Origin: an uncultured Lachnospiraceae bacterium
GTDB lineage: Bacteria; Bacillota; Clostridia; Lachnospirales; Lachnospiraceae
Direction: 5' to 3'
Assembly: GCA_951801955.1 (NCBI GenBank)
Contig: CATOOV010000002.1
Location: 1 to 64,000 of the forward strand
Length of the DNA stretch: 64,000 bases
The position numbers and the translations under genes are program-made. The notes beneath the pieces were generated by a model that was not told the origin of the DNA, made no database searches, and saw only the letters and a program-made list of their open reading frames with translations. Below are positions 28,239-39,311 of the stretch, piece by piece; position 1 is the first letter of the stretch, and every line of letters begins with the position of its first letter.

Positions 28239-28344
28239 TCTTTTCAGAATGGGAGTAAAGCGACACTAAGAAAAAACGAAATTTTTGGAATTTCATAGTT
28301 TCCTACAATGTCTTTATAGATCCGAGTTTCAAAAAGTGGTAAAA

Positions 28345-28466
28345 GAACAAAAGTGCGTTTCAGGCACTCCCGCGCCCAATTATTTTTTCTAACGCATCTT
28401 TTGTTCCCACGCCGCGCCCAATTGCGCAGCAATATTTTCCCCTTTGTGCGCGTGCGCATAATTATT
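28345..28466 (-). repeat. R1 dispersed structured repeat, full copy
   Basis: Read on the minus strand this ~120-base element matches 32133-32250 over its whole length (ATGCGCACGCGCACAA, GGAACAAAAGATGCGTT, AAAATAATTGG, GGGAGTGC, CTTTTGTTC blocks). Domain 1 has an inner hairpin ATTGC-TGC-GCAAT beside a purine bulge. In domain 2, GAACAAAAG(A)TGCGTT pairs with AACGCACTTTTGTTC. Confidence 0.8.
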
Positions 28467-28623
28467 TTGTTGTCTCAAAAGTTCCGTTTTTCTTATATGC
28501 AGACATGGTAATCCTGGTAATCTTACATCCTTCCTCCAAAGTAAATTTTACTTTTCCTAATTTTGCTGTGGTGTAACAAAAACTAGCATTAGAATTATTT
28601 TGCTTTACATCATATAAATCGCT
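28462..28623 (-). pseudogene. C-terminal remnant of a third secreted-protein paralogue
   Basis: The frame reads DLYDVKQNNSNASFCYTTAKLGKVKFTLEEGCKITRITM and matches the middle-to-late part of the two neighbouring secreted proteins (YDVNKNSAFTFFCYTTATSGKVKFTLDDGCKIKNITM). It has no signal peptide, no first 150 residues and a different C-terminal end. Upstream lies the terminator of the next copy. It is therefore a truncated tandem duplicate that R1 may have interrupted at its 3' side. Confidence 0.7.
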
Positions 28624-28692: not shown

Positions 28693-29445
28693 TTATTTTC
28701 TTAAAATCCAAAAAGCGGTCATTCCTGTAGTGCCATTTTTTTTATCTGTATAGTGGATAACAAAACGATTCGTTCCAAACATTGGTTTCGACCAGCTAGT
28801 AGAATCGGAAGTGTTCTTTGCTCTTTCAAATGTCACTTTACTTCCATTCTTAAATTTTTTATTTTTTGAAGCGTAAATCTCAATCTTTGTAATCTTGTAT
28901 CCTTCATTCAATGTGAATTTTACTTTTCCTGACTTTGCTGTGGTATAATATCCACCTGCCATAGTATTTGGGTTTGGGTCATGATTATCTGCATCATATA
29001 TTTTCTTGTTGTCTATGGTAACAGTTTTTAACACGCCACCGCCATTTCTTTTGGCACATACCGTGATGGTATGGCTGCTTCTCTTGGACGTCTTACTCTT
29101 ATATACGTCAAATTTAATCTTGTAAGTTCCCTTTTTCTTTGCATACATCGTAAGCGTAGCCAGGGAACTATAAGCACCTCCCCCTCTGTATGTCTGCTTT
29201 ACAACCAAATTTTTCGTTGTTTTCTTTCCTTCATACACTTTGATGTTTTTAATGTTGTCATCTTTGCCAGGCATAGACACACTTGTTGATGTATAATTTT
29301 CCACTCCTACGCCACAGCGAACATACTTTGCCACTGATACTTTTTTGGCTGCCGCCTCTGCCTCCATGCTGTTCACTGCCAGCCCCATACTGCAGGTCAT
29401 GATAACTGCCAGAAGCATACAGAGTATTCTCTTTCCTATTTTCAT
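28693..29445 (-). CDS. Secreted protein, tandem paralogue A
   Basis: This 250-residue secreted protein has a signal peptide MKIGKRILCMLLAVIMTCSM with cleavage after NSMEAEAAA (about residue 33). The mature part is beta-rich and lysine-rich, with a central GTYKIKFDVYKSKTSKRSSHTITV stretch that resembles an Ig-like or immune-evasion-type beta-sandwich strand pattern. I recognise no named domain. It shares about the whole layout with the upstream paralogue (30422-29643), including identical first 9 residues. The start has AAGGAG 8 bases upstream. It is probably a cell-surface or matrix protein. Confidence 0.75.
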   Translation of the reverse strand: MKIGKRILCMLLAVIMTCSMGLAVNSMEAEAAAKKVSVAKYVRCGVGVENYTSTSVSMPGKDDNIKNIKVYEGKKTTKNLVVKQTYRGGGAYSSLATLTMYAKKKGTYKIKFDVYKSKTSKRSSHTITVCAKRNGGGVLKTVTIDNKKIYDADNHDPNPNTMAGGYYTTAKSGKVKFTLNEGYKITKIEIYASKNKKFKNGSKVTFERAKNTSDSTSWSKPMFGTNRFVIHYTDKKNGTTGMTAFWILRK

Positions 29446-29642
29446 AAATTTTCTCCTTTCACAATCTTTTCCTGTTAGGTAATTGCGAAACGCAATCGTT
29501 TTATAAGTTTCCTATACAATTCAAGGAATTTGATAGTAAATATTTTCACATACAAAAGGTAAGAAATGCATTCCAGCACCATGGAAGCAAGACGCAAAGA
29601 ACCCCTGTTATCTTTTATAAATGTAGAAACCTGTCGACCCTT

Positions 29643-30422
29643 TTATTTATATCTAAGAATATAAAAAGCTGCTTTATCGACAGCTCCTTTATTATTCTCA
29701 TCCGTATACTCAATCTCAAACTCGGTACGTCCCCACATCGACTTATTCCAACTGGTAGAATTAGAAGAATCTTGTCCATATTTTCCAAATGCCGCTTTAC
29801 TGCCATTCTTAAATTTTTTGTTCACGGGATTGCTGTCCCTTTTATATGTACGCATAGTAATATTTTTAATCTTGCATCCGTCATCCAATGTGAATTTCAC
29901 TTTTCCAGATGTTGCCGTGGTGTAACAAAAAAAAGTAAAAGCAGAATTTTTGTTTACATCATATACTTTCTTACCATCTATGGTAACTGAATCCAGTGCA
30001 GAATCAGTGTTTCCTCTGGCACGTACCGTGATGGTATGGCTGCTTCTCTTAGTCGTCTTGCTCTTATACACATCAAACTTAATTTTATATGTTCCTTTCT
30101 TCTTTGCATACATCGTAAGCCTAGCCACGGAACCATAATTATCATAGGTTCCCGTATTTTTCGATCTGGATGTCTGCTTTACAACCAAATTTTTCGTCGT
30201 TTTCTTTCCTTTGTACACTTTGATATTTTTAATATTATCATCCTTGCCGGGCATATACACATCCGTTGAGATATTATGTCTCATCCCCACGCCGCACCGG
30301 ATATATTTTGTTATTGACACTTTCGTCGCTGCTTCTGCCTCCATGCTGTTTCCTGCCAGTCCTATACTGCAGGTCATGATAACTGCCAGCAGAAAGCAAA
30401 GTATTCTTTTTCCTATTTTCAT
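29643..30422 (-). CDS. Secreted protein, tandem paralogue B
   Basis: This 259-residue protein is homologous to paralogue A downstream. It has a signal peptide MKIGKRILCFLLAVIMTCSI, cleavage after NSMEAEAA, then matching segments KYIRCGVG, MPGKDDNIKNIKVYKGKKTTKNLVVKQT, GTYKIKFDVYKSKTTKRSSHTITV and a C-terminal WNKSMWGRTEFEIEYTDENN. The start is the ATG at 30422 behind AGGAGG. The frame is open 21 codons upstream without support. About 200 non-coding bases separate the copies, so each probably has its own promoter. The function is unknown. Confidence 0.75.
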   Translation of the reverse strand: MKIGKRILCFLLAVIMTCSIGLAGNSMEAEAATKVSITKYIRCGVGMRHNISTDVYMPGKDDNIKNIKVYKGKKTTKNLVVKQTSRSKNTGTYDNYGSVARLTMYAKKKGTYKIKFDVYKSKTTKRSSHTITVRARGNTDSALDSVTIDGKKVYDVNKNSAFTFFCYTTATSGKVKFTLDDGCKIKNITMRTYKRDSNPVNKKFKNGSKAAFGKYGQDSSNSTSWNKSMWGRTEFEIEYTDENNKGAVDKAAFYILRYK

Positions 30423-30537
30423 AAATTTCTCCTCCTTAAAAAAATAGTATGGTTCCATTATCCCCTCCCCTCCAGAATTTGTCAAGGATTTTCATTTATC
30501 CGGCAGGACAATGTCGCGGAATTATTATAAAAAAAGC

Positions 30538-31933: not shown

Positions 31934-32005
31934 GGCTCGTTGGTCAAGCGGTCAAGACGCCGCCCTCTCACGGCGGAAACAGGGGTTCGATTCCCCTACG
32001 AGCTG
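31934..32005 (+). tRNA. tRNA-Glu (anticodon CTC)
   Basis: All four arms can be drawn: acceptor GGCTCGT with ACGAGCT (last pair G-U), anticodon stem CCGCC/GGCGG around CT-CTC-AC (anticodon 31967-31969), and T arm AGGGG-TTCGATT-CCCCT. The overall sequence is of the Firmicute glutamate type. CCA is not encoded. It has its own promoter and terminator. Confidence 0.92.
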
Positions 32006-32035: not shown

Positions 32036-32078
32036 AAAACACTGAAAATGTCTGAAAAAGGCAGTTTCAGTGTTTTTT
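32036..32078 (+). terminator. Terminator after tRNA-Glu
   Basis: AAAACACTGAAA (32036-32047) pairs with TTTCAGTGTTTT (32065-32076), and T6 runs into the adjacent palindrome. Confidence 0.85.
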
Positions 32079-32134
32079 ATTCTAGTAGGAAAGAGCCTTT
32101 CATATGAAAGGCTCTTTCCTACTAGAATAAAAAA
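32073..32134. repeat. P-type palindrome (31-bp perfect arms)
   Basis: A perfect 62-bp palindrome is centred on CATATG (32101-32106), with arms containing TTCTAGTAGGAAAGAGCCTTT. It shares the TAGGAAA...TTTCCTA outline with the palindromes at 19943 and 28195. It overlaps the tRNA terminator on its left and R1 on its right. Confidence 0.85.
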
Positions 32135-32250
32135 TAATATGCGCACGCGCACAAGAGGAAGAGTCACTTCGTGACTGTGCGCGTCGCGGAACAAAAGATG
32201 CGTTGTCGAAAATAATTGGTCGTGGGAGTGCGTGAAACACACTTTTGTTC
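32133..32250 (+). repeat. R1 dispersed structured repeat, full copy
   Basis: Domain 1: ACGCGCAC pairs with GTGCGCGT, enclosing a purine bulge AAGAGGAAG and the inner hairpin AGTCAC-TTC-GTGACT. Domain 2: GGAACAAAAG pairs with CTTTTGTTCC around a ~40-base loop. The inner hairpin differs in sequence from the 28345 copy but keeps pairing. Confidence 0.8.
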
Positions 32251-32337
32251 CTATAAGATTCACAAAAAGGCGTTGCTGATTATGGGAAAATAAGATATAA
32301 TAACGGAAATAAGTATAGAAACTGCAACCACCAAGTA

Positions 32338-32390: not shown

Positions 32391-32417
32391 AGATAAATAC
32401 ATATGAGGAGGAAGTGC

Positions 32418-35400
32418 ATGGAAAAAAAAGAAATTTTGGAAGCGATAAGAGGGAATCTGAAGGAGATAAAGAGCGGAATGTTGTGCATGGAAAAAGACAT
32501 TGCACATATTTCCGCTTGTATTAAGAATCAACAGTTTATCCCAGTAGATATAAGTCAAAATATGATTGATGTTTTGAAGAATGTCAAGGAGGCAAGGGAT
32601 GATTGTAAAGAACAGTATGAACAGTTGAGTGATGACCCCTTTGAATTTCAAAAAATTGAAGATTTTGAAAGTGTTTTAAGTGTAATAGAAGAAGAAGCCC
32701 GGCGGGAAGATTTTATTCAGACGACACAGTTATTCCTGAAACTTCATGCAAAAGATGAACACATACAAGAGCTTTTGGTAAGTGAGCAAATAAAATTAGT
32801 GGAACTGCTTCCAGAGGCAGATGATACAGATGAAGCATTATCAAAAATACGGCCCTATTATGATTTTGTGCAACTTGTAATAGGAAAAGATTCTACATCT
32901 TCAGCCTCTATTGTGGAGTCCATTGTAAATTTACGGGTAAATTTTGGAGATGGACTGATCGGAGAGGCATTTTGTAAAAATAATATCTATATAAAAACAG
33001 AAGAAGATACAAAAGGGGAGCCTTTGAAAGAACTTTCACGGATAAATGGTGGAGGAAAAAACGCAGATTCTTTGGAGACCCTTGAGGAAAAAGCAGCCTT
33101 ACAGTCAGAAGGACAGATTGCCGGTCACTTGGGGGAATCTCAGGCAAAAGTAACTTCACAAGCATCAGAAGAACAGATCACAGGTCAGTTGGAGGGGGTT
33201 GAGCCAGGAGTGGCTTTGCATGCCGAAGAAGATGATGACGCAGATCTGTTGGAGGGGGTTGAGCCAGGAGTGGCTTTGCATGCCGAAGGAGATGATGACG
33301 CAGATCTGTTGGAGGAATCTCAGACAGAAGGATTCTTACAGGCATACGAAGGAGAAGCGATCACAGGAGAGGAATCTTTCGGACAGCCAGGAACCCTGCA
33401 GGATGCGAAGGAAGCAGAAACCGAGCAGATGGAAGGGAGCTCACAAGAAACGGGATCGGCGCAGGACACAGAAGAAGAGGAGGAACAGGCAGAGGAACTG
33501 AACGAAGAGTTCCCAAAGATTGTACAAGAACTGTTGGATGCACAGGCAATTCTTCCTGATACATACAATTATGGAGAGCTGAAGATTTACAAAGGGGAGC
33601 GTGAAGGCAAAAAATTTGGTGCAAATATTTTTAAAAATGATTTAAAAAGTGGGCATATGAAGCTTGAGAAGAAAATTTTTGTTTTTGCCAGAAAGTATGA
33701 TGCAATCGCAGAGAATTTTATTTTTGCTTTTACCGATATCCCAAAAGAGATGGTGAATTATGCATTTGAACACTTAATCAAAAAAGGTTATCTGAGAAGA
33801 TATTCCATCCTTGGAATAGGTTCCTTTTGCTGTGTGACTCCAAAAGGCGAACATGCCTTTTCTTCCAAGGAAGCATGTGCTTTTTTAGGGGTAAAGCGTT
33901 CAGGGCATAATCAAAATGTGGAAGTGGTGGAAGATACCATTCAAGCGGTTGCCACTCGAATTGCTTATGCAAAAATGCTGGGATTAGATTTTAAGATAAG
34001 AGGTGCAATTGGTTTCTCTATTCAGAAATTGTTATATACAGAATCTTTTTTGCTCGGCATAGAGAATTTAAAACAAGAGTCAGATTTGTTTGTCGGATGT
34101 TTCTGGGGACAACTGGATGAGTGTGATAAATTTGATAAGGAATTGAAGGACAGCCTGCAGGAATTAAAAAAAGTATCACGCATTATTTTTGTAGGCATGG
34201 ATGTAAGCCATGTGTCAGCTGTGGCAGAAGTTTTTATTGCGCGGTATGAGGAGTTTATGCCAGAAGAAAGATATTTATATGCCTTGAAGGATGATAGCTT
34301 TTATTCCTGGGAAGATGGGCAAGAATTGGAGGTTCAAGATATCTGGCGATTTCAAGAAGAGGGGGAAAAAGAAGGGCAGGAAACTTTTGAGAAAGAATCG
34401 GAAATGAAAGCTGTGCTGCAAACAGAAGGCGAAAAAAAAGCTGTGTCAGAAACAGGGGATGAAAAAAAAATTGGGCTGGAAATTGAGTTCAAATCCGAAA
34501 CAAATGACAGGCTTGGAGCCGTGCCGGAAGCAGAACTGGAAGAAGGGGAAAAGTGGAAAGACGGACTGAAAGACGTTGAAAAACTGGAAGAAGACCAAGT
34601 ATTCCAGCCAGTCATTGGCATGGAAAACATTCTGCAGGAAGCATATAAGATGATTGTAGGTGGAAGAACTTACTGTGCCGCCGCATATTTAAAAGCAAAC
34701 ACAACAATTATTGATGGAATTGACATGGTTTATGACAAATTGGCGTATGCGGTGAATGAGCCGTCAAGATCCTGCAGTTACAGTTCCGATGAAATTTTTG
34801 ATGTTTTTCTGGATGACAGTAGTTTGTTTTATGATTATTTGATGATTTCAGCGGCGTTGAGAACCTTTTTTTACAATCATTCGGAATTTGATTATTCCAT
34901 GAAAGCCTTGTACGAAAATATGAAAAATCTGCCTACAGTAACATTAATTCCTGAGCTGAGCAACTTTATGTACTTTTTAATTGATTTTAAGGAACAGGAA
35001 CATAAAGGGATTGATGTATATGCAGATTACCGGATGAAAGATAAGATTCTTTTGGAAAATACAATTATTCGAATACAGCGGGAAGCAGAAGGGTTTTATG
35101 AAAAAAATGTCCGCGGGCATTTTTCAGAGAAGGCAAGCCATAAACGTTTTATGGAAACAATGAAGCTTATTTTTTCACAGGACAATGATATCGCTGTTTA
35201 CCTGAACTATATTGTGGAGGGCGATAACAGTGTGTTGGAACTGATGAAAGAATATTTGGCGGAAAATTTTATGAAAGACGAAAGCCCTGTGGATGTGGTA
35301 AATATTGACCGAAGCAAAATTGAAGCCTATATTGATGATAATTGGGATAAGGCGAGAGAGAAAATGCGGGTGGCAAAGAAGACATCTGATTTGATGGGAA

Positions 35401-38165
35401 GCTTCAGACAAAATCTCTACAATTCATTACATACAGCAATTACTACTATGTGTGACTGGGTGAAATATGTGGAGTGTTTGGAGCGTTCCGGGGAGGATGC
35501 CGGTTTTGAGCATTATAAAAAGGTCAGGAATACCTTGCTGAATGACATTGATGTCCTGGTAGGATTTTACAGCCGGCAGAAAACTGAAAATTGGGAGGAA
35601 AAAGCAGGAATTAAAATATTGACAGATACGCTTGTCGAATTAAAAGCGAGGTTAAATGGAAGTTATAATGAAAACGAGCAAAAATATTTCTATATTGATT
35701 TCCTGAAATCAGATATAGTGCTTTTGGATGAAAACTATTTTCCTGTTTTTGACAAAAACTTCCATGATATTCCAGAGCTTGCCGTTACTTCGAGGATCCT
35801 TTATCATTCCAAGCAGAAGTTTGCAGGTTTGGAGGAAAGGCTGCACGATATTTTTGAAAAATCTGGAGATGATTTTGGTTCCGCACAGTTGATTGACCAG
35901 TATTTTGCAGATGTAACAGGGCAATCTGCCTTAGAGGGCAAATGGGATTTGAACGAGAGTATCAGTTTTGCAAAACGCAGGGCAGAAAAAAATAAAAACG
36001 ATTTTGTAGAAAATTTGGAATTGGCACAAAGTTATGGTCAGATTGACAATTCTATGGAAAATAGAAAAGAGAAAATTCTTCAAATTGTAAATGAATTTTA
36101 TGAACATGCCAATGATACAGATAATTATGGATTTTTCTTAAAAGTGACCAAGGCATATATGTCTCAAATTAAAAAAGATGCAAAGGTAAGGGAAGAGCCG
36201 CTGAAAAGAGAGCTGGAGCTTTATAAAAAAGAGATGCCAGAGGAAAATCCCGAAATTACAAAAAGATTTGAGAAAATTGAGAAAATGCTGGAGGTTCAGA
36301 ACTATACGGTTGCAGAGGATTTGTTGTCCCGTCTGAAGAACGGCGAACCAGAAGGGGAGCTTGAAATTTTTGAGACGGATTATCTCAGAAAATTTATGGA
36401 TGAGTATGATTATTACTGCAGAATGGTGCTGAACAGCAGCCGTACTATGAGTTCCTTGGTACCAAGCCGGCTCCGCAACAAAGAAGGACGGGGCGGGCAG
36501 CGTTTGGTTGACAATTGGATTTCCAATGGACAGACAACAGAAAAAGTAAAAAATTTACTGCAGGCATTGGGATTTTCAGTTTTGGAGGTAAAGGAACAGG
36601 CAAAAATCGGAAAATTTGAAAATTATAATGTGATGCTTATGAAACCTCAAAATGGTAAAAAAGCAAATTTTAAACATCCCATTGCCGCTTTGGGTTCCAG
36701 GGCAGTGGAAAATGGTTTTCGGGTGGTTTGCCTGTATGGAATATACGATGCAAACCGTATCATCGAGGTAATTAAAGAGCTTGGAAATGCGAAAAATACG
36801 ATGATTTTTCTCGATTGCGCACTGACGATACAAGATAGAAGGAGTCTTGCCAGAAAAGTAAAATCTGATGTGCAGGACAAATTGTTTGGCATTATTGACA
36901 GAGTACTTTTGATGTTTTTGATCAACCATTACAACGAAGAATATATCAATAAAATGCTGATGTGCATTATGATGCCTTTTGCCTATTACCAGCCTTATGT
37001 GTGGGAATCTTCCAATGAGATTCCGCCGGAAATTTTTATGGGCAGAAAAGAAGAATTGGAAAAAATTGAATCGCCTGGAGGGGTCCATATTGTATATGGC
37101 GGAAGACAGCTCGGAAAGTCTGCTTTGCTCCGAAGGGCAAAAAATGATATTGACAGAAATGAAAATGGGGACCGTGCGGTCCTGGTGGTAATAAAAGATA
37201 AAGATTATAAGAAAACGGCAAGTGCAATTGGGGAAGCGCTTTATTTTGCCGGGATACTCAAATACGACCCCCAGACGGAGGATTGGGATGAGCTGGCGCG
37301 CGTGATCAAGAAACGTCTGCTCCTTGATACAGAAGAAAAAATTCCATATCTGCTGCTTTTGTTAGATGAAGCAGACGCATTTATTGAGAGCTGCGAGGAG
37401 GTAGGGTATCATCCGTTTGATGCTTTGGAGGATATTCAGGGAATTGGAAGCGGAAGGTTTAAATTTGTGATTGCAGGATTGAGAAATATTATCCGGTTTG
37501 ACAGAGACCATACTTTAAATAGCAACAAGGGATTGACGCATTTTGCATCTATGACCGTGAAACCATTCCAGGTGCAGGAGGCAAGGGAACTTTTGGAGGT
37601 TCCGCTATATTATCTCGGTTTACGGTTTCCAGCAGATAAGGAATCTTTGATTTCTTTGATTTTTGCCAGTGCAAATTATTTCCCAGGATTGATTCAGCTC
37701 TACTGTGCAAAATTGGTGGAGGCAATGCGCAAAGGGGATTATGCTGGATATGATGAGAGAAATACTCCTCCTTATGAAGTACAGGAAAGCCATATTAAGA
37801 AAGTGCTTGCCGATAAAGGGTTTATGGAACAGATTCGAGAAAAATTTGATATTACGCTGAGATTGGACGATGATGATTATTATCATATTATTGCGTTGCT
37901 TGTGGCGCATTTGTATCATCAGAATGGATATATGAGCGGATATACTTCAGAGGAGGTTCATGAAGAAGGACGAAGCCTGGGAATTTACAAAATTGAAGAG
38001 CTTAGTTTAAACAAGCTGACGGCATTGATGGAAGAACTTTGTGAATTGAATGTGCTGCGGAAAACATCAGATGAGAAATACCTGTTTAACCAATATCGCT
38101 TCCATCAGATGATGGGTTCTTGTCAGGAAGTAGATGATAAGCTTATGGAGTATATGGGAGAATAA
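32418..38165 (+). CDS. Giant multidomain P-loop NTPase (STAND-like), 1915 residues
   Basis: I do not recognise a named family. In order: a helical N-terminus (1-200), an acidic low-complexity zone with seven 20-residue repeats (about 211-350), a winged-helix-like segment (about 410-470, IPKEMVNYAFEHLIKKGYLRRY) and an alpha/beta segment (about 495-610). A second acidic linker (about 635-735) and a long helical middle (740-1400) follow. Last come an alpha/beta domain (about 1415-1500), an AAA/STAND-type ATPase and a winged helix (about 1800-1915). The ATPase has Walker A YGGRQLGKSALLRR (lysine about 1567), Walker B YLLLLLDEADAF (about 1650) and a VIAGLRN sensor. The start is ATG 32418 behind GAGGAGG. 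It is probably an operon with 38238. Confidence 0.85.
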   Translation: MEKKEILEAIRGNLKEIKSGMLCMEKDIAHISACIKNQQFIPVDISQNMIDVLKNVKEARDDCKEQYEQLSDDPFEFQKIEDFESVLSVIEEEARREDFIQTTQLFLKLHAKDEHIQELLVSEQIKLVELLPEADDTDEALSKIRPYYDFVQLVIGKDSTSSASIVESIVNLRVNFGDGLIGEAFCKNNIYIKTEEDTKGEPLKELSRINGGGKNADSLETLEEKAALQSEGQIAGHLGESQAKVTSQASEEQITGQLEGVEPGVALHAEEDDDADLLEGVEPGVALHAEGDDDADLLEESQTEGFLQAYEGEAITGEESFGQPGTLQDAKEAETEQMEGSSQETGSAQDTEEEEEQAEELNEEFPKIVQELLDAQAILPDTYNYGELKIYKGEREGKKFGANIFKNDLKSGHMKLEKKIFVFARKYDAIAENFIFAFTDIPKEMVNYAFEHLIKKGYLRRYSILGIGSFCCVTPKGEHAFSSKEACAFLGVKRSGHNQNVEVVEDTIQAVATRIAYAKMLGLDFKIRGAIGFSIQKLLYTESFLLGIENLKQESDLFVGCFWGQLDECDKFDKELKDSLQELKKVSRIIFVGMDVSHVSAVAEVFIARYEEFMPEERYLYALKDDSFYSWEDGQELEVQDIWRFQEEGEKEGQETFEKESEMKAVLQTEGEKKAVSETGDEKKIGLEIEFKSETNDRLGAVPEAELEEGEKWKDGLKDVEKLEEDQVFQPVIGMENILQEAYKMIVGGRTYCAAAYLKANTTIIDGIDMVYDKLAYAVNEPSRSCSYSSDEIFDVFLDDSSLFYDYLMISAALRTFFYNHSEFDYSMKALYENMKNLPTVTLIPELSNFMYFLIDFKEQEHKGIDVYADYRMKDKILLENTIIRIQREAEGFYEKNVRGHFSEKASHKRFMETMKLIFSQDNDIAVYLNYIVEGDNSVLELMKEYLAENFMKDESPVDVVNIDRSKIEAYIDDNWDKAREKMRVAKKTSDLMGSFRQNLYNSLHTAITTMCDWVKYVECLERSGEDAGFEHYKKVRNTLLNDIDVLVGFYSRQKTENWEEKAGIKILTDTLVELKARLNGSYNENEQKYFYIDFLKSDIVLLDENYFPVFDKNFHDIPELAVTSRILYHSKQKFAGLEERLHDIFEKSGDDFGSAQLIDQYFADVTGQSALEGKWDLNESISFAKRRAEKNKNDFVENLELAQSYGQIDNSMENRKEKILQIVNEFYEHANDTDNYGFFLKVTKAYMSQIKKDAKVREEPLKRELELYKKEMPEENPEITKRFEKIEKMLEVQNYTVAEDLLSRLKNGEPEGELEIFETDYLRKFMDEYDYYCRMVLNSSRTMSSLVPSRLRNKEGRGGQRLVDNWISNGQTTEKVKNLLQALGFSVLEVKEQAKIGKFENYNVMLMKPQNGKKANFKHPIAALGSRAVENGFRVVCLYGIYDANRIIEVIKELGNAKNTMIFLDCALTIQDRRSLARKVKSDVQDKLFGIIDRVLLMFLINHYNEEYINKMLMCIMMPFAYYQPYVWESSNEIPPEIFMGRKEELEKIESPGGVHIVYGGRQLGKSALLRRAKNDIDRNENGDRAVLVVIKDKDYKKTASAIGEALYFAGILKYDPQTEDWDELARVIKKRLLLDTEEKIPYLLLLLDEADAFIESCEEVGYHPFDALEDIQGIGSGRFKFVIAGLRNIIRFDRDHTLNSNKGLTHFASMTVKPFQVQEARELLEVPLYYLGLRFPADKESLISLIFASANYFPGLIQLYCAKLVEAMRKGDYAGYDERNTPPYEVQESHIKKVLADKGFMEQIREKFDITLRLDDDDYYHIIALLVAHLYHQNGYMSGYTSEEVHEEGRSLGIYKIEELSLNKLTALMEELCELNVLRKTSDEKYLFNQYRFHQMMGSCQEVDDKLMEYMGE
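33048..33467 (+). repeat. Seven tandem 60-bp units inside the NTPase gene
   Basis: Units begin at 33048, 33108, 33168, 33228, 33288, 33348 and 33408. Each encodes 20 residues with the outline xxxxxxLEgxepgvaLhae. Across the 33189-33309 stretch, neighbouring units are nearly identical at DNA level. The outer units are strongly diverged. Confidence 0.85.
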
Positions 38166-38237
38166 GAGAGAAAGAATTTATTAATTCTTTGATTAACTGC
38201 CTGTATATGCTGGAAAACGCACAGAATGGAGGAAACA

Positions 38238-39311
38238 ATGGAGGACATATGGTGGAAGCAGGTGACCAATGCAGTACAGTTTATTGAGAAAATGGTAGAA
38301 ACCGTACAGGAGAAAGAAAAACATGTAGCTTTGGAACTGCCTGAAAATATGCCATGGTATGATACGATGATACAATTGACAGAGGAAAAAATGCGAGGGG
38401 GAAGCTCTGAAAGGAAACTGGTCTTTATGCAGGGGGATGAGGAGGAAGCTGGAAAATCTATATTCCTTGAATTTTGCAGCGGCGATAAGCAGACGGAATA
38501 TAACCCGGCAGTTGGATATGCAGCATTTTTGGCAAAGAGCGATGATATTGTGCTGAATGAAAGGATTGTCTGGATATCTGGAATACCCAGGGACAGAAGC
38601 AGGGAGTGGATGGAGTTTGTGTCTGAGTATGCATCGAGCAGGAAGAAAAAAGGGGGAGGAGGTGGCATTTTTATTCTGGAACTCCAGGAATCCGCAGTCG
38701 GATTGGCAAAGAAAAAGGGGGTTCAGATGATTTCTTTTCATAAGGAAATCAGCCGATATGACAGTGTGGTTTTTAATATGCTTGCAGCTTCCTCTATAAA
38801 AGAACCAGCCAATTTAAAAGAATATTTGGCAGAACTAATTTCTAACATTGCGGGAAGCGATATAGAATTGGGTGCACAGTGTGTCAGAAGGCATAAGGAA
38901 TTTTTGACAGATCCCTATCAGGCATTACAAAGGATTTCCTTGGAGGAATTAAGGAGCAGCGGAAAACAATTCAACATTGCGTTAAATCCAGAAGAAGTAA
39001 AAAAGCAAATTTGGAAGGCACAGATTAAAATTATTTTTCCGTTGATTGAAGAATTCAGAGGGCGTTTTGTGGATAGATATCAGGAACAGATTCGGGGACA
39101 ACTGCCCATTCCCTATGCTTTTGGAGAGGAATTCACCGTGGCAGATGAGGTAGAGGTGGGAACTCTGTATTATATGGCATGTCATGATAAAATACACGTT
39201 TCCAGAAAGGATTATGATTGTTTGAAGATGTTTCGGGAAGCAAGAAATGATTTGGCTCACTTAAGTACCTTAAGCCAGCAAGAAATGAAAATAATATTTG
39301 ACGCATTTTAA
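38238..39311 (+). CDS. HEPN-motif protein paired with the giant NTPase
   Basis: This 357-residue protein is of unrecognised family. The N-terminal half looks like a degenerate P-loop fold: MQGDEEEAGKS (about residue 62) in place of a Walker A, then RIVWISGIPRDRSREWMEFVSEYA and a Walker-B-like GGIFILEL (about 145). The C-terminus is helical and ends in FREARNDLAHLSTLS. That fits the R-x4-H signature of HEPN ribonuclease domains (RNDLAH, about residue 338). I start at the ATG at 38238 because GGAGG at 38228-38232 suits it. ATG 38226 lacks a ribosome binding site. It follows the giant NTPase by 72 bases with no terminator, suggesting joint function. RNase activity is inferred only. Confidence 0.7.
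   Translation: MEDIWWKQVTNAVQFIEKMVETVQEKEKHVALELPENMPWYDTMIQLTEEKMRGGSSERKLVFMQGDEEEAGKSIFLEFCSGDKQTEYNPAVGYAAFLAKSDDIVLNERIVWISGIPRDRSREWMEFVSEYASSRKKKGGGGGIFILELQESAVGLAKKKGVQMISFHKEISRYDSVVFNMLAASSIKEPANLKEYLAELISNIAGSDIELGAQCVRRHKEFLTDPYQALQRISLEELRSSGKQFNIALNPEEVKKQIWKAQIKIIFPLIEEFRGRFVDRYQEQIRGQLPIPYAFGEEFTVADEVEVGTLYYMACHDKIHVSRKDYDCLKMFREARNDLAHLSTLSQQEMKIIFDAF

Follow-up and report, generated by a model that had tools for sequence, protein, structure and literature searches.

Kaur et al. (eLife, 2021; PMC8195603) predicted a mobile bacterial two-gene operon whose products are both STAND nucleoside triphosphatases (NTPases) of a new family, nSTAND2. One of the two proteins has eroded NTP-binding motifs and is most commonly fused to a GT4 or HEPN domain. 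A conserved arginine finger is stated for both proteins, their STAND domains are placed nearest to CR-ATPases, Dap3 and RNA12, and they are predicted to form a toroidal hetero-multimer. The type was predicted in print in 2021, and no experimental test of it was found in the literature searched. The subject here is a gene pair, A and B, that is probably a member or close sister of the nSTAND2 two-gene system. The pair lies in a 64,000-nucleotide stretch (the window) of contig CATOOV010000002.1 from an uncultured Lachnospiraceae bacterium. Gene A (32418..38165, + strand) encodes a giant STAND/ORC-Cdc6-type ATPase of 1,915 amino acids with relatives in many genomes. Gene B (38226..39311, + strand) encodes a partner of 361 amino acids that joins an inactive STAND fold to a HEPN-like domain.

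Inactive STAND proteins are also found in BREX, where a survey assigns BrxB to this class (PMC12839542). BrxB binds BrxC through the interface by which BrxC self-associates, with ATP between the subunits, and BrxC binds DNA and BrxB:PglZ (PMC13326643). HEPN domains are linked to STAND/ORC-type ATPases in a defence setting in the BREX-related DUF499/Hma proteins and the HEPN-STAND-TPR proteins (PMC12839542, PMC3710099). The three-gene pPIWI-RE island was described in 2013, and the main text of that paper contains no HEPN and the string "stand" only within "standalone" (PMC3702460). Two further papers describe HEPN systems or inactive-STAND systems, and the A-B pair was not found in their available sections (PMC13092281, PMC7159879). 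Statements attributed here to these papers refer to the portions of the texts that were available.

An active and an inactive STAND protein in one operon

The original prediction, made from the sequence of the window, described two adjacent genes, the first encoding a protein of 1,915 residues, and both reading frames are present. The longest open reading frame of gene A spans 32403-38165 (1,920 amino acids), and residues of protein A are numbered from 32403. The ATG at 32418 is the better start because AGGAGG precedes it at 32406-32411. For gene B, the ATG at 38238 is the better-fitting start, since relatives of the same genus start at the equivalent residue.

The C-terminal part of A (37020..38162, + strand) is a STAND/ORC-Cdc6 ATPase with a winged helix. 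Its motifs are FMGR (residues 1545-1548), a Walker A GGRQLGKS (1566-1573) and a Walker B LLLLDEAD with D1655-E1656. A STAND-like ATPase had been proposed from GGRQLGKS and LLDEAD, and the structural model and PDB comparison agree, with ORC/Cdc6 and TnsC chains among the structural matches of the A model. A conservation profile was built from window A and the 63 of 80 relatives that are complete and longer than 1,650 amino acids. The Walker A lysine K1572 (K1567 in the 1,915-residue numbering) is invariant in all 64 aligned rows and in 14 of 14 sequences of a wider set. At position 1698, the residue after the sensor strand is basic: arginine in 60 and lysine in 3 of the 64 rows, and arginine in 12 of the 14.

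A conserved alpha-helical middle (34614..36510, + strand; approximately residues 738-1370) is delimited by the AlphaFold model and the conservation profile, and mean identity is 17% before residue 738 versus 40% after. It is followed by a predicted alpha/beta domain (36528..36940, + strand; approximately residues 1376-1512). The Rossmann-like part of the original prediction corresponds to this predicted domain (about 1380-1510), to which no fold family is assigned. Its profile returned nothing useful against PDB sequences, and one of 44 members gave a NARF match (E 0.0082), with no other consistent family. A restriction-endonuclease-like fold was considered for this domain from motif shape and is not claimed. 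The N-terminal variable part (32418..34380, + strand; approximately residues 1-660) is weakly conserved and comprises a helical start, an acidic linker and a winged-helix-like plus alpha/beta stretch. Winged helices had been predicted in the plural: the one after the ATPase fits the model and the PDB comparison, and inspection of the sequence suggests a second near residues 440-490. Tandem repeats of 60 and 30 nucleotides (33167-33315 and 34407-34469) lie in acidic linkers of this variable part.

Residues 1-250 of B (38226..38975, + strand) are modeled with a confidence (AlphaFold pLDDT) of 96.3 as a STAND/ORC-Cdc6-like fold that lacks Walker motifs, in line with the degenerate P-loop fold first proposed. 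The model alignment comprised 60 of the 74 complete B proteins after removal of near-duplicates, plus the window protein, L026 and L033. The loop that follows the first strand contains P43-W44. Within residues 1-250, 9 of 85 rows match a loose GxxxxGK[ST] pattern; judged from the model, these matches precede the first strand and do not coincide with the Walker A loop. Fold searches with B were dominated by matches to the STAND part; in a viral fold library, clamp-loader and other ATPase-like proteins ranked on top.

Neither A nor B has a Pfam or NCBIfam match above the cut-off, and neither matched a housekeeping family. No PADLOC-DB 2.0.0 family was found for either at E up to 1. Searches of PDB sequences gave no meaningful match to A or B; the A alignment yielded weak primase large-subunit matches alone (E 0.05-0.2), and the whole-protein B alignment profile nothing useful.

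A scan of genome contigs found at least 570 relatives of A among 593 candidates, of which the best 80 were kept. Their titles point mainly to Bacillota of the gut and rumen. B lies directly after A at 78 of the 80 loci, with a spacing of -8 to +4 nucleotides at 60 of the 78. The exceptions are L027, where the contig stops 211 bases past A, and L097, where no B was found. Because the best 80 loci are the best-scoring ones, a phylum-wide sample was searched as well. A is present in 11 of 398 genomes, including that of the window, and B is directly downstream in all 10 of the others, one B being broken. In the genus, A occurs in 4 of 29 genomes (again counting the window's) and is adjoined by B in each. 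Of 392 genomes sampled from the order, 3 have A and exactly these 3 have B, one being the window's. At the Bacillota locus L218, the B gene falls into two frames and A is open over 917 codons only.

Plasmid-borne A is found in Rhodothermota, Cyanobacteriota, Pseudomonadota and Actinomycetota. Among 27 plasmid records with A, 16 loci were opened; a B was recognized by profile at 8 and not found at the other 8. The pairing is weaker on plasmids, a point against the conflict-system reading given below. At the Euzebya locus L202 (12589-15276), the gene right after A encodes an 895-residue protein that the B profile does not recognize and that is possibly a different partner. The association goes beyond chance: many genomes have relatives, and outside plasmids the two genes are almost always paired. 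Co-occurrence in other genomes was a check set by the original prediction, and these counts bear it out. A-B is a real and widespread two-gene system with a conserved operon and a patchy distribution.

The tight operon, the near-constant pairing in Bacillota and the plasmid carriage would also suit a toxin-antitoxin module, in which B is a constantly dangerous RNase, A its neutralizer, and stress or plasmid loss the trigger. Two-gene toxin-antitoxin systems of the HEPN/MNT type are known (PMC7641770). However, an ATPase of 1,900 residues with a variable N-terminus far exceeds the needs of a neutralizer, and the pPIWI-RE fusion described below indicates recognition. A toxin-antitoxin role is therefore considered improbable.

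The C-terminal domain of protein B

Residues 255-361 of B (38988..39308, + strand) form a helical domain that is probably a HEPN RNase, as judged from a motif, the helices of the model and weak Pfam matches. The motif is R340-N341-D-L-A-H345 (RNDLAH, residues 340-345), which contains the R-x4-6-H motif of the HEPN superfamily. R340, N341 and H345 are present in every one of the 83 aligned rows, while the third motif position varies freely. The alignment comprises 74 complete B proteins and 9 seeds, with 4 partial B proteins of the 78 excluded. Three rows (L025, L026 and L033) apparently duplicate G418, G004 and G001, leaving approximately 80 independent sequences. The B partners on plasmids carry RN-x-x-A/S-H in 7 of 8 cases, and the Azospirillum protein has RRGMAH. 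In the AlphaFold model, the helices span residues 255-284, 286-291, 311-319, 327-344 (with the motif at its end) and 351-359.

Comparisons with known families weigh against the HEPN assignment. Window B matched no HEPN family at the Pfam cut-off, and a profile of the B C-terminus had no match among PDB sequences. When it was aligned with 21 HepT-type proteins by hhalign, 12 motif columns aligned at a probability of 1.7%. Among the matches listed for 63 B proteins scanned against Pfam, the HEPN-type ones were few and weak (best E 0.0021): HEPN_Swt1 (4), RiboL-PSP-HEPN (2), DUF4145 (2), HepT-like (1) and Abi_2 (1), accompanied by DUF6548 (5). We take DUF4145 and Abi_2 to be HEPN-type families. 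HEPN_Swt1 occurs in 2 of 116 genomes. A genome search with the B C-terminal profile gave 19 matches outside B, of which 10 were scanned with Pfam. Two of these weak look-alikes matched named HEPN-type families and two DUF6548; others are decarboxylase, amidohydrolase, CBS or MobA proteins. Because the look-alikes include unrelated families, the RNxLAH motif on its own can turn up by chance.

DUF6548, the commonest weak Pfam match of B, may be a HEPN-type family. DUF6548 proteins with a similar RNxIAH motif were seen at L144 and L154.

The lack of a significant HEPN profile match would also be expected if the domain were a helical adaptor without catalytic activity, in which case the pair would have a regulatory or structural role that involves no RNA cleavage. 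In alignment A3, E275 and R278 equal the RNxLAH motif in invariance, which leaves room for a structural role of the motif. On the other side, R, N and H do not change even between distant loci, although the third position is free to vary, and a system composed in the same way was read by specialists as containing a HEPN RNase (PMC8195603). The adaptor is accordingly regarded as a poor bet. Given the invariance, the topology in the model and the way this composition has been read in print, the C-terminal domain of B is very probably a HEPN domain. The HEPN signature of the original prediction is thus probable from the invariant residues and the modeled topology, and the profile comparisons gave no significant match.

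Exchange of the N-terminal module and a proposed mechanism

The N-terminal third of A differs between lineages, and some relatives have a different repeat-like region there. In Azospirillum and Microvirga, A carries an N-terminal pPIWI-RE (Argonaute-like) module with pPIWI_RE X, MID and RNaseH domains, as in the pPIWI-RE island (PMC3702460), and the Azospirillum locus also has Y/REase and Z genes. The window pair differs from that island in that its A has no pPIWI_RE domains. No description of this exchange of the N-terminal third, including fusion of pPIWI-RE to a STAND/HEPN pair, was found in the literature searched, and the exchange of recognizer modules is the part of the system that looks new.

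Alphaproteobacterial B partners (L019 by Pfam; L023, L203 and L204 apparently) have an extra C-terminal kinase-like AAA_33 domain. Its position beside a probable RNase suggests modification of nucleic acid ends.

The composition of the pair was already predicted in 2021, so the original statement that no named system has it does not hold. Like nSTAND2 (PMC8195603), A-B is a two-gene operon in which both products are STAND proteins and one of them is devoid of NTP-binding motifs; in A-B this one is fused to a probable HEPN effector. It differs in that an arginine finger is visible by sequence in A (R1698), whereas no arginine in residues 1-250 of B reaches 80% conservation in the aligned rows. 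In 8 plasmid records, no GT4 partner was seen next to A; PF20706 was matched in 3 of the 8, nowhere beside A, and it also has matches in 14 of 14 control genomes. The pPIWI-RE fusion and the kinase-like end of B are not mentioned for nSTAND2 in the available text, which gives no accessions, sizes or N-terminal modules, so that the comparison is one of descriptions (PMC8195603). With the arginine finger seen by sequence in A only and no GT4 beside A in those 8 records, A-B is placed as a probable member or close sister and not as a settled identity.

We lean towards the reading that A-B is a two-protein, ATP-switched conflict system, probably anti-phage and of the abortive-infection type, that gathers HEPN RNases. 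The variable recognizer, the ATP switch, the probable RNase, the patchy spread, the plasmids and the pPIWI-RE fusions fit a conflict system. A would be the sensor and switch, its variable N-terminal module recognizing the invader and its conserved helical middle passing the signal on. The C-terminal STAND ATPase would then bind ATP and oligomerize. The inactive STAND of B would pack against the ATPase of A, as BrxB does on BrxC, and would thereby bring its HEPN domain into the assembly; the mixed A-B assembly is proposed by analogy with BrxB-BrxC. Upon triggering, the assembly would gather the HEPN domains, RNA would be cut, and growth or phage production would stop. Broadly, nSTAND2 has been predicted to work by a mechanism of this sort (PMC8195603).

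The resemblance to other systems is partial. The ATPase of A is C-terminal, whereas that of BrxC is N-terminal (PMC12839542, PMC13326643), and in A-B a HEPN-like effector is joined to the inactive STAND. By Pfam, none of the BREX genes PglZ, PglX and BrxC is among 10 neighbors in the window. No gene in the annotated plasmid flanks is annotated as PglZ, PglX, BrxC, BrxA or BrxL, the rest of those genomes not having been searched; one flank, at L024, contains an N-6 DNA methylase gene on the opposite strand. In the DUF499/Hma and HEPN-STAND-TPR proteins, HEPN and ATPase form one chain, whereas in A-B the HEPN-like domain sits on a separate inactive STAND, and DUF499 operons add a methylase and a helicase (PMC12839542, PMC3710099). 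Avs and other antiviral STAND sensors differ from A-B, which splits ATPase and effector over two proteins, has its variable part at the N-terminus and has no PADLOC match.

Several observations speak against a defence role. STAND sensors usually have a central ATPase, and the domain order of A differs. No match to the pair was found in 50,697 phage records, and two scans of viral contigs gave none and then one distant relative. Ten proteins of the window were scanned, and the single PADLOC match was a marginal one to a PHP-domain protein (E 9.4e-5); Pfam showed the pair to be surrounded by housekeeping genes. Among the PADLOC matches listed for the neighbors of relatives (148 open reading frames from 26 of 80 loci) are DpdF, DrmC, PsyrT, Csn2, MADS and AriA- and GajB-like proteins; these are pooled over loci with no background control and are a hint only. 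On the same 148 frames, Pfam gave many metabolic families.

A different kind of defence would be targeted and non-suicidal. Like BrxC and ORC, the STAND pair would bind nucleic acid or move along it, the variable end of A would direct it, and B would cut the RNA of the invader and not that of the host. The ORC/Cdc6 and TnsC matches of A, the DNA binding of BrxC (PMC13326643) and the exchange of N-terminal modules, which in two genera brings in pPIWI_RE domains, members of a guide-binding family, are in keeping with this. Activated HEPN RNases are, however, often indiscriminate, and no nuclease or guide-binding domain was detected in window A. Targeted interference is thus held to be unlikely, and the ATP-switched abortive system is retained as the preferred explanation.

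A tentative extension of this explanation is that the STAND assembly and HEPN domain of A-B form an exchangeable executioner cassette joined to differing recognizers. In some Alphaproteobacteria, a guide-loaded pPIWI-RE module might switch on the STAND proteins and a collateral HEPN RNase.

Genomic setting and significance

Upstream of the pair are infC, rplT and tRNA-Glu(ctc) (31934..32005, + strand), and downstream are genes for an FMN reductase, DUF6033, MTHFR and methionine synthase. The tRNA and repeats named in the original prediction are both present. In two relatives of the same genus, the pair lies at the same downstream junction, its upstream genes are different, and no tRNA was found beside it in the 20 kb scanned of each. 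Given these relatives, the nearness of the tRNA-Glu and the repeats is probably incidental to the A-B system. Six genomes of the genus that lack A were compared at DUF6033-MTHFR, with approximately 1 kb upstream covered in one (G012). The genes upstream differ among them, so this site looks like a variable junction and yielded neither a clean empty site nor a border.

A perfect palindrome of 62 nucleotides (31+31; 32073-32134) lies just 3' of the tRNA-Glu and is followed by GC-rich hairpin sequence. Two inverted-repeat pairs (68 nucleotides at 85% and 25 nucleotides at 88%; 28340-28468 and 32130-32255) bracket the infC-rplT-tRNA-Glu block and may represent a dispersed repeat element or mark the border of an inversion. 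On the - strand, at 28693-30485, two neighboring open reading frames appear to be duplicates of each other, with repeat blocks 80-87% alike approximately 970 nucleotides apart and a weaker one at 73%. Of the two, the first gave a weak match to a glucanase domain.

No Pfam, NCBIfam or PADLOC model recognizes the window proteins, and scans with these models therefore miss a family of at least 570 loci. The pair offers a testable case of an active and an inactive STAND protein driving a HEPN effector. It links BREX-type ATPase pairs, NLR-like switches and, by fusion, Argonaute-like proteins. If the cassette proposal is true, some alphaproteobacterial loci would combine guided recognition with an RNase kill switch and a kinase-like domain alongside, and the lineage of the window would use the same cassette with another N-terminus, perhaps one that senses protein or DNA. 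If the system is confirmed, comparing the N-terminal versions of A would reveal which part senses what.

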